Positions 61,932-63,338 of a stretch of 64,000 bases of DNA are shown here, piece after piece. Made by a program: the position numbers and the translations under genes. The notes beneath the pieces are model-generated. The model ran no database searches. It was given only the letters and a program-made list of their open reading frames with translations, and was not told the DNA's origin. The first letter of the stretch is position 1. Each line of letters opens with the position of its first letter. The DNA is from an uncultured Shimia sp. (GTDB lineage Bacteria > Pseudomonadota > Alphaproteobacteria > Rhodobacterales > Rhodobacteraceae), in contig CALCOY010000027.1 of assembly GCA_937897325.1 (NCBI GenBank), positions 1 to 64,000 of the forward strand, read 5' to 3'.

Positions 61932-61934
61932 TCG

Positions 61935-61958
61935 GGATCCTCTTGAGGATCTCGTTTT
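61935..61958 (+). terminator. rho-independent terminator of trpF-trpB
   Basis: GATCCTC-TT-GAGGATC (61936-61951), extended by one G-T pair, is followed by TCGTTTT. It begins 3 bases past the trpB stop, a compact standard terminator. Confidence 0.8.
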
Positions 61959-62144
61959 CAAACCACCAAACGTCGGCAATCGGCGTGTTTTGCCTCATAA
62001 ACTCAGGTTTATTTGCTTAATCCGCATGGTTTAGTCAAACTCGATTAAACGGCAGCTACATGGCGGTGCCGACCTGCATTGACCTAGCTTGATTGCAGGA
62101 GGCGCAGTTGTTTCTGCGCTGATCTGACCATGTTGGAGGCACAT

Positions 62145-62282
62145 ATGGCCCTGATCTTTAACTTCTCTGCCGCCGTCGTCGTTTTGGCAACCGTGGCCGT
62201 TGCGCTCGAGACGCGCCCCGCAGATCGCGACAGCCGGATCGTTCTGGCCTCGGAGGCTTTCGCCGATGGGCTTGCGCATTGA
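62145..62282 (+). CDS. 45-residue hydrophobic small protein
   Basis: ATG 62145 opens a 45-codon frame with a good ribosome-binding site (GGAGG, 7 bases before). The product begins MALIFNFSAAVVVLATVAVA, one membrane segment or uncleaved signal, then a charged tail (LETRPADRDSRIVLASEAFADGLAH). I do not recognise the family. A GCGCAG-TTGTTT-CTGCGC hairpin (62102-62119) lies 25 bases upstream of the start. It is the first unit of the small module ending in the LuxR-type regulator. Confidence 0.6.
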   Translation: MALIFNFSAAVVVLATVAVALETRPADRDSRIVLASEAFADGLAH

Positions 62283-62292
62283 GGGGGTTGCT

Positions 62293-62343
62293 ATGAACTC
62301 GCCACAGACCGTGTCGTCAGGATTGGTCTTCCGGAGAGCCTGA
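62293..62343 (+). CDS. possible 16-codon leader peptide
   Basis: ATG 62293 follows GAGGGGG and encodes MNSPQTVSSGLVFRRA, ending in a TGA that overlaps the next ATG (TGATG at 62341-62345). The ribosome-binding site of the next gene (GGAGAG) lies inside this frame. That layout suggests translational coupling or a leader peptide. Evidence is positional only. Confidence 0.45.
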   Translation: MNSPQTVSSGLVFRRA

Positions 62344-62813
62344 TGAAGAAAAACTCCCAAATCAGTTCGGTAAAGAGCACGTCATTCACACGGCGCGCGG
62401 TTTTGGCTCCCTTGATGCTGGGAGGCCTTCTGGCAGTGGTGCAGGTCATCCCTGCCTTTGCCAACCGCATCGAAGACGGCATCACCCGCCAGTTGCGAAA
62501 TCAGGGCTACACCCAGATCAACACCCGAAACACCCTGCTAGGCCGTATCCGCATCACAGCGCGCCGCGGAAACACCTTTCGCGAGATCATCGTGAACCCT
62601 TCAACCGGTGTGATCCTGCGCGACTATGTCCGGGGCGCAGAGGGTGGTCTTGGCGGCCTCATCAGCCCGGATCGCAGTGGCGGTGCCGGTGGTCGGACGG
62701 GCGGCGGCGACGATGGAGATGACGGTGATGATGGTGACGATGGCGACGATGGAGGAGATGACGGGGGTGACGATGGCGGCGATGACGGAGGAGATGACGG
62801 TGGAGACGACTGA
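62343..62813 (+). CDS. exported PepSY-like protein with Asp/Gly repeat tail
   Basis: The 156-residue protein has a signal peptide with twin arginines (TRRAVLAPLMLGGLLAVV, cleavage near AFA-NRIEDG), so Tat or Sec export is possible. Residues about 42-95 resemble a PepSY-type domain, with ITRQLRNQGYTQIN, a strand LLGRIRITARRG and IVNPSTGVILRDYV. After a Gly-rich linker the C-terminus is pure Asp/Gly: four DDG units, then five DDGG units and a final DD. Such a tail probably binds divalent cations. It is followed by the membrane LuxR-type gene. Confidence 0.7.
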   Translation: MKKNSQISSVKSTSFTRRAVLAPLMLGGLLAVVQVIPAFANRIEDGITRQLRNQGYTQINTRNTLLGRIRITARRGNTFREIIVNPSTGVILRDYVRGAEGGLGGLISPDRSGGAGGRTGGGDDGDDGDDGDDGDDGGDDGGDDGGDDGGDDGGDD

Positions 62814-62834
62814 TTACCTCAAGGAGCCATAGTG

Positions 62835-63338
62835 ATGGCAAGCTCTTACCTCTTTGGCATTATCCTAGTCATTCAAGTGCTTTGTGCTGTTTTCTTCGTA
62901 TCTGACATATTAATCTCTGTCTTGGGATTGACGGTTGAACCGATCAATTGGCAGGTTCATGAATTGATAGAGATCGGGGCGGCAATCGGGCTGATCATAG
63001 GCGTCGTGCTCGGGGCTTTGACGTTGCGCGCATCGAACCGCAGATCGGACCGCATCGAAAGCCAATTGCGCGCAGCTTCGGGCGCTTTCATGGAGCTTTT
63101 GTATGACAAGTTCGAGGAATGGTCGCTGACACCGGCAGAGCGAGATGTGGCACTTTTTGCTATCAAAGGTTTGTCGACCCAGGACATCGCAGCGGTGCGC
63201 GAAACCTCAGAAGGTACTGTAAAAGCGCAGACAAATGCCATTTACCGCAAAGCCGGAGTGAGCGGTCGCCCACAATTGCTAAGCGTGTTCATTGACGATC
63301 TGATTGATGGCCCACTTCACAGTTCCGAACGTGCGTGA
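62835..63338 (+). CDS. membrane-anchored LuxR-type regulator
   Basis: The 167-residue protein has two membrane helices (about residues 5-31 and 43-66), a short basic linker (LRASNRRSDRIESQLR) and a C-terminal LuxR/GerE helix-turn-helix (LTPAERDVALFAIKGLSTQD, then EGTVKAQTNAIYRKAGVSG). There is no receiver or ligand domain. AAGGAG precedes both a GTG at 62832 and the ATG at 62835. A membrane-tethered transcription factor sensing an envelope state is inferred, with the adjacent exported protein as candidate partner. Its 3' end overlaps the convergent DUF2237 gene by 22 bases. Confidence 0.82.
   Translation: MASSYLFGIILVIQVLCAVFFVSDILISVLGLTVEPINWQVHELIEIGAAIGLIIGVVLGALTLRASNRRSDRIESQLRAASGAFMELLYDKFEEWSLTPAERDVALFAIKGLSTQDIAAVRETSEGTVKAQTNAIYRKAGVSGRPQLLSVFIDDLIDGPLHSSERA

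Follow-up and report, generated by a model that had tools for sequence, protein, structure and literature searches.

A PepSY-like exported protein paired with a membrane-anchored LuxR-type regulator in Rhodobacteraceae: a candidate one-component envelope module beside trpB

Do four short consecutive frames behind trpB form one signalling unit of the cell envelope, and if so, which of them take part in it and what could it sense? The question is raised by a stretch of 64,000 nucleotides (the window, here always meaning the whole stretch analysed) from a 5.36 Mb genome, which belongs to the Rhodobacteraceae according to its named relatives. A sequence-only reading had described the frames as a 45-residue membrane peptide, a 16-residue leader, an exported protein with a strongly acidic repeat tail and a membrane-bound transcription factor, together suggesting an envelope signalling system. 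All four frames are present. A Shine-Dalgarno-like (SD) stretch is visible ahead of each, that of the 16-aa frame being the least clear, and the TGA of the 16-aa frame shares bases with the ATG of the exported protein (TGATG), as had been claimed. The gene order is ihfB-lapA-trpF-trpB, which we take to be the names of these genes from recognition of their sequences, followed by the module and by a convergent DUF2237 gene (Pfam match, 180 bits), the end of which overlaps that of the regulator gene by 22 bases (63317-63338). In the following, the position of the exported-protein gene directly ahead of the regulator is called slot 2, and the position between trpB and slot 2 is called slot 1. The features are:

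61933-61954: additional inverted repeat
61970-61986, + strand: terminator-like hairpin followed by a T-rich run, in the interval between trpB and the module
61996-62013 (core 61998-62011), no strand assigned: predicted operator A, palindrome CATAAAC-N4-GTTTATT, core conserved in relatives
62028-62033, no strand assigned: half-site B, GGTTTA, conserved about 30 bp past the core start
62046-62050, no strand assigned: half-site C, TAAAC, conserved in relatives as TAAACC
62059-62063: CATGG, near the position of the CAATGG/CAATAT element of relatives
62145-62282, + strand: 45-aa frame in slot-1 position, signal-peptide-like start, acidic tail absent
62294-62343, + strand: 16-aa frame (the former leader), judged a chance frame
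62343-62813, + strand: slot-2 PepSY-like exported protein, 156 aa, N-terminal export signal with RR, core at about 40-97, Asp/Gly tail
62835-63338, + strand: membrane LuxR regulator, 167 aa counted from 62835, two helices, short loop, long helix 39-95, HTH at about 97-150

The hairpin at 61970-61986 says little taken alone, as one was found compared to a mean of 1.9 in shuffles.

To begin with the pairing, 141 loci coding for 123 distinct LuxR proteins were collected, two of which (L142, L174) were left out here since they hold too little upstream DNA. In all 139 loci that extend 450 nt or more upstream, the end of a slot-2 type gene lies no further than 500 nt ahead of the regulator. The pairing is equally complete after removal of identical regulators (121 of 121 non-redundant loci) and among the loci that had been found by the regulator only (78/78). 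Cores of 111 of the 141 loci served to train the slot-2 profile, which also matches every one of the 28 other loci that have enough DNA upstream. The gap between both genes has a median of 31 nt (21 nt in the window) and contains no terminator-like or sigma-70-like site; the sigma-70 promoter scan found none, with 0.9 expected. Among 295 Rhodobacteraceae genomes, sampled one per genus, slot-2 matches occur in 130, all of which also have a LuxR match (compared by eye), and some regulator match, many of them weak, is found in 207. The genome analysed holds the regulator once at full length and the slot-2 match once; the closest regulator matches come from three Tateyamaria genomes (L122, L123, L137) with 75-78% identity. 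The complete pairing, the short gap and the occurrence in many Rhodobacteraceae genera support the view that the slot-2 gene and the regulator are one genetic unit, as far as comparison of sequences can tell, and the synteny of this pair, on which the sequence-only reading had staked its proposal, is kept across relatives. As a side observation, L258/L277 (G294:C4) comprises two complete pairs of exported protein and regulator, arranged tail to tail.

It could be argued that a slowly evolving synteny around trpB simply holds unrelated genes together, given that trpB is no more than 2.6 kb away in 100 of the 121 loci (the trpB statistics refer to these 100) and that in 76 of the 121 a convergent DUF2237 gene lies within 200 nt of the regulator. 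The pair is, however, intact at six places without trpB and DUF2237 (L107, L109, L110, L112, L113, L121) as well as in a genus from outside the family (L278, L279), by which this explanation is largely refuted and left highly improbable.

The regulator is a LuxR/GerE member by its helix-turn-helix (HTH) domain, which Pfam GerE (PF00196) matches with 32.5 bits at a cut-off of 23.5. The Pfam scan yielded neither a receiver domain, so that it does not qualify as a NarL/FixJ response regulator, nor an autoinducer-binding domain, so that it does not qualify as a quorum-sensing LuxR receptor. In the structural model (mean pLDDT 91.7) hydrophobic helices at residues 2-30 and at the start of 39-95 are separated by a loop of eight residues, and residues 39-95 form a single continuous helix of 57 residues running into the HTH. 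The two hydrophobic helices of the earlier description are thereby confirmed. The loop is presumably periplasmic because the HTH must be cytoplasmic. In an alignment of 30 rows Q14, F21, E43 and G56 are invariant, and W39 nearly so. The NCBIfam model NF047608 (LIC13292 family transcriptional regulator) describes proteins of similar length (166) with an HTH and is matched by 30 of 30 LuxR rows; the protein of the window reaches 62.6 bits against a cut-off of 200 and over residues 82-157 only, and is therefore no member. No paper on the LIC13292 name was found in the open-licence literature. We also observed that the regulator frame of L236 (G132:C148, 351-713, minus strand) seems to lack the membrane hairpin, while its operator and slot-1 protein remain.

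The Asp/Gly tail that had been noticed in the exported protein is confirmed in the 156-aa frame. Its AlphaFold model comprises a helix and four strands (pLDDT > 90) with ends of low confidence, and L66, R68, R80, E81, G89 and D94 are invariant in 31 aligned rows. We label the protein PepSY-like because the window protein itself is not matched by Pfam PepSY or PepSY_2 (PF03413, PF13670) at E up to 1 and its relatives match PepSY_2 weakly (12 of the 31 alignment members, best E 0.0026). Three relatives match TrAA12 (best E 2.9e-6), and NCBIfam has no match for the exported protein. Foldseek returned nothing at E 0.001 or below. With VIA-align, Z reached 7.7 with unrelated folds on top; among those at Z 5-6, which likewise comprise unrelated folds, are the C-terminal domain of YpeB (5boi) and UipA (7ath), the latter being a weak fold match (Z 5.1, rmsd 3.0, 56 residues). 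A sequence search of the PDB with the slot-2 profile gave weak matches, chiefly to tail columns. The motif RRx[FLIVAM] occurs within the first 30 residues of 59 of 121 slot-2 proteins, which is suggestive of Tat export in about half of them. The tails, analysed for 120 of the 121 loci, have a median Asp plus Glu (D+E) content of 43% and at least 25% in 101; since the remaining 19 of 120 fall below 25%, some being Gly/Asn-rich instead, a simple role as polyanion is argued against.

Ahead of the operon we found an array of short sites, a new observation that the sequence-only reading had missed. Upstream of the first exported gene the dyad TAAAC-N4-GTTTA occurs in 81 of 121 loci, compared to 0.0 in two-base-block shuffles. 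Anchored on this dyad the consensus reads (C)ATAAAC-N4-GTTTAT(G), then GGTTTA at +29 to +34, TAAACC at +47 to +52 and CAAT(G/A)(G/T) at about +59 to +64; in the window the CATGG at 62059-62063 is a possible -10 element. The exact core is present in 82 of the 121 non-redundant loci, and within the 1.03 Mb of these same loci 81 core places lie within 2 kb upstream versus 4 elsewhere. The genome analysed contains it once, in front of its own operon, with four hits for the reversed control. We consider it likely that this LuxR binds the predicted A/B/C operator.

The combination of A and B was searched in the 295 genomes and gave 58 places in 55 genomes, compared to 15 for the reversed control. 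By our reading of the coordinates, 52 of the 58 lie at the module or at its contig-broken remains; for a few of these the contig breaks next to trpB or slot 2, and two are opposite-strand readings of a double site. The six off-module places (G142:C135, G047:C16, G176:C2, G224:C10, G061:C137, G123:C1) are no more than chance would give, because the reversed control alone gives 15. Five of them were taken as chance and have no downstream gene of evident interest. The sixth, G047:C16 (L251, the same place as L232), is described for its own sake: an A+B array at 2787 on the minus strand, away from the module, is followed by a gene whose exported product contains four EF-hand stretches (EF-hand_5, 72 bits) and a tail of Gly/Asn type; the gene has two possible starts, each with an SD, 133 or 148 nt downstream. 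In the module of G047 the slot-2 protein has a Gly-rich tail, and the 6 kb searched there hold no core even if one mismatch is allowed. Either the operator has moved its duty to the EF-hand gene, or the site is accidental.

These data also bear on the idea that the operator belongs to another regulator and that the LuxR has different or weaker targets. The exact core is missing from 39 of the 121 loci, including those of the most distant LuxRs (L110-L113, L121). Among the 11 loci with at least 4.4 kb of upstream DNA and no trpB, it is missing from seven (L071, L086, L110, L112, L113, L121, L162), and the G047 array precedes an EF-hand gene and not the module. On the other hand, the remaining four modules away from trpB do carry it (L089, where it lies about 2 kb upstream, L107, L109 and L197), G047 does encode the LuxR, and in the genome analysed the single exact core is not accompanied by an enrichment of relaxed sites with up to two mismatches (55 versus 79 for the reversed control). 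The sole one-mismatch site there, C82:36637, was considered as another target and rejected, as it lies inside a long frame that appears peptidase-like by eye (L204). Despite G047 and the seven loci, the assignment of the operator to this LuxR is kept, because the site is unique and well placed in its own genome; ownership by a different regulator appears quite improbable.

What precedes slot 2 differs between the window and its relatives. In 85 of 100 non-redundant trpB-linked loci the interval from trpB to slot 2 holds one more acidic frame, so that a second exported protein is found ahead of slot 2 in most relatives, which the earlier reading did not see. These slot-1 frames were picked by D+E > 15%, and some wrong ones are included (e.g. 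L062, in the 99 tail pairs considered below). Of the 85, 47 match the slot-2 profile at E < 0.01; slot 1 frequently codes for a PepSY-like paralogue and in some cases for an EF-hand protein. In several slot-1 proteins, e.g. in Tateyamaria, only a short stretch separates the signal peptide from the acidic tail. An EF-hand pattern in PROSITE style was present in 6 of 100 slot-1 frames versus 40 of 2000 shuffles. A Pfam EF-hand check of four slot-1 proteins accepted L066, left L134 below the cut-off and gave nothing for L065 and L076. No EF-hand was found in the window proteins by the Pfam scan, and the pattern occurs in 0 of 121 slot-2 proteins.

We further report that the low-complexity tails of both exported proteins match each other within a locus, whatever the folded part. 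Over the full set of 99 pairs the two compositions are more alike than in every one of 2000 permutations. The slot-1 member matches the slot-2 profile in 47 of these pairs, gave no match on scanning in 38 and was left unscanned in 14; the last two groups, 52 pairs together, show the same result, again against 2000 permutations. This likeness is suggestive only, as genome relatedness, base composition or repeat exchange could cause it and some frames are wrong.

In the window, the slot-1 position is taken by the 45-aa frame. Its codon score of 0.173 is coding-like (trpB 0.188) and is reached by 0 of 76 shadow-frame ORFs. An ATG frame of 45 aa is not unusual alone, arising in 52% of shuffles; together with an SD it arises in 256 of 5000 (5.1%). 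An alternative figure of 4.7% counts only the first ATG per frame, a measure that the observed frame fails (first ATG at 62130). By eye the frame consists of a signal peptide and about 24 further residues, and it starts 147 nt past the operator core. Of the 82 loci with exact core, the window included, 62 show a start that is preceded by an SD and opens a hydrophobic N-terminus, and in 49 of the 62 the distance is 130-169 nt. With tblastn there was no match below E 0.001 in the slot position (60 regions, and also 11 named loci). Homology of the peptide to the short slot-1 proteins was considered and rejected: a profile from 11 such N-termini gives just 3.9 bits, a score equalled or exceeded by 135 of 300 copies in which the mature part was shuffled and by 26 of 300 that were shuffled throughout. 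The same is true of 41 of 139 N-termini from slot 2 and of 55 of 105 from the other slot-1 proteins.

The 45-aa frame nevertheless lies where slot 1 is expected, follows an SD, has coding-like codons and begins like a signal peptide, which leads us to regard it as probably a shrunken or decayed slot-1 gene of this genome. The distance from trpB to slot 2 is 414 nt in the window, compared to a median of 805 nt; that it is even smaller in eight of the 100 loci makes a repeated loss of slot 1 probable. A membrane peptide of 45 residues, as proposed earlier, is doubtful in view of the resemblance to a signal peptide with a short remainder. The 16-aa frame has a codon score of -0.398, below the shadow-frame mean of -0.136. 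A short frame of some kind ends at the slot-2 start in 24 of 121 relatives, and 15 of them that were compared have no evident common sequence. The simplest reading is a chance ORF, and the leader is dropped as a part of the module. Neither small frame is conserved in sequence, which counts against both as the sequence-only reading had conceived them.

The regulator type is not confined to this arrangement. At E 1e-15 its profile detects 25 places in 20 of 385 genomes of the class, and at 12 of the 25 a PepSY-type gene lies at most about 1.2 kb upstream, by our own tally, which includes the window and three other Rhodobacteraceae-type pairs or the like; L255 has a PepSY-type neighbour besides. 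A PepSY_2 protein adjoins the distant regulators of L259, L260, L261, L263, L266, L267 and L271, and related LuxRs in other families adjoin PepSY_2 proteins that score above the Pfam cut-off. A cytochrome b561 is added to the PepSY-type gene in L259, L260, L261 and L271 (Pfam) and in L263 and L266 (by eye). At four other places there is a cytochrome b561 (L268) or a dihaem cytochrome c (L264 and L265 by Pfam, L269 by eye), and a DUF1924 protein was confirmed at L264. No PepSY or cytochrome neighbour was recognised at 9 of the 25 places (L281 by profiles only), and the exact operator core is found at none of 20 class-wide loci. The PepSY partnership seems to be older than its acid-tailed form, and the dihaem cytochrome c and DUF1924 neighbours suggest a redox-linked use.

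The closest parallels among known systems combine PepSY proteins with two-component sensors. In the portions of PMC12714742 drawn on here, the small exported PepSY protein DbfQ of Vibrio cholerae directly modulates the membrane sensor DbfS, and PepSY-sensor gene neighbourhoods are described as widespread. The locus reported here may resemble DbfQRS in that the gene of an exported PepSY-like protein stands beside a membrane regulator, with the qualification that the window protein fails the Pfam PepSY profiles. DbfS and DbfR are, however, a histidine kinase and a response regulator, in contrast to a single membrane LuxR with a short loop outside. The unit has neither a kinase nor a response regulator: its sole regulator is the receiver-less LuxR, located between slot 2 and DUF2237, and trpB is a further neighbour. 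The module is therefore not of the DbfQRS kind, but by analogy it may work like it. The word LuxR is absent from the main text of PMC12714742. The same portions report two PepSY genes, PA2658-PA2659, upstream of BqsS in Pseudomonas aeruginosa, of which only the nearer is predicted to bind the sensor. This is reminiscent of slot 1 and slot 2, although BqsS belongs to a two-component system and the module here is one-component.

In Microbacterium the PepSY protein UipA, whose negatively charged face binds uranyl, adjoins the regulatory system UipRS (PMC8963506). It shares with slot 2 the place beside a regulator and is among its weak fold matches (7ath); it differs by tandem PepSY domains, by being a single-pass membrane protein and by its two-component system. 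LanPepSY/LanP of Methylobacillus flagellatus is a periplasmic PepSY protein that binds metal (lanthanides) via acidic residues (PMC11845868, PMC12482762); it has two PepSY domains of about 60 residues each, and the portions of these two papers drawn on here mention no LuxR partner. In the open-licence literature, judged by title among the matches listed, there was nothing on this PepSY-LuxR pair or on a membrane-anchored LuxR of this type; searches of the same literature gave no paper joining PepSY with cytochrome b561 or with an EF-hand operon, and no match for a membrane-bound one-component LuxR of Roseobacter.

From these observations we lean, with some reservation, towards an autoregulated envelope module that is a one-component analogue of DbfQRS and BqsRS. 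With its two-helix anchor and a loop of only about eight residues, presumably periplasmic, the regulator would probably be unable to read a ligand alone. The acidic PepSY-like partner of slot 2 could report the state of the envelope or its own cation loading to the anchor, from where the signal would run along the continuous helix 39-95 into the HTH. The HTH would bind the A/B/C operator ahead of the operon, and this binding would set the amount of the exported acidic protein, or of two such proteins in most relatives. That the slot-2 protein gates the regulator is a fair assumption, and the two may be in direct contact.

Unlikely, in our opinion, is a regulator that senses the membrane directly via its hairpin, be it the lipid state or a membrane-embedded redox process, with the exported proteins as mere output, e.g. 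as periplasmic cation buffers. The invariant Q14, F21, E43 and G56 lie in or beside the helices, the neighbouring cytochromes b561 (L259, L260, L261, L268, L271) or dihaem cytochromes c (L264, L265) point to membrane redox, and the sole exact operator in the genome is the operon's own, all of which would fit such a sensor. PepSY-type proteins recur beside this LuxR in the class-wide places, L255 included, as a sensory partner would, and the nearly invariant W39 adjoins the loop; both speak against direct sensing.

For the gated regulator, a cation such as Ca2+ is a weak candidate signal. Of the cation sensing proposed by the sequence-only reading, the EF-hand proteins speak weakly and indirectly in its favour, found in slot 1 of a few relatives and behind the A+B array of G047, and the lack of an operator at the G047 module is held against it. 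The envelope signalling set proposed there is likewise retained in part: the pair of exported protein and regulator stands, the 16-aa leader and a conserved 45-aa membrane peptide do not.

Beyond the single locus we tentatively put forward, as a possibility for which the odds are somewhat short of even, an alphaproteobacterial class of one-component envelope sensors. In it a two-helix LuxR would be gated by an exported partner that can be exchanged (acid-tailed PepSY-like, EF-hand, or PepSY with cytochrome b561); in Rhodobacteraceae it would act through a dedicated operator that hardly serves anything but the operon itself, and the exported cation-binding protein would in this way measure and set its own amount. 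Two uncharacterised genes beside trpB are joined into one unit, and the predicted operator makes binding, the sign of regulation and the ligand directly testable. In no fewer than 130 of 295 Rhodobacteraceae genomes a logic like that of DbfQRS seems to run via one membrane-bound transcription factor.
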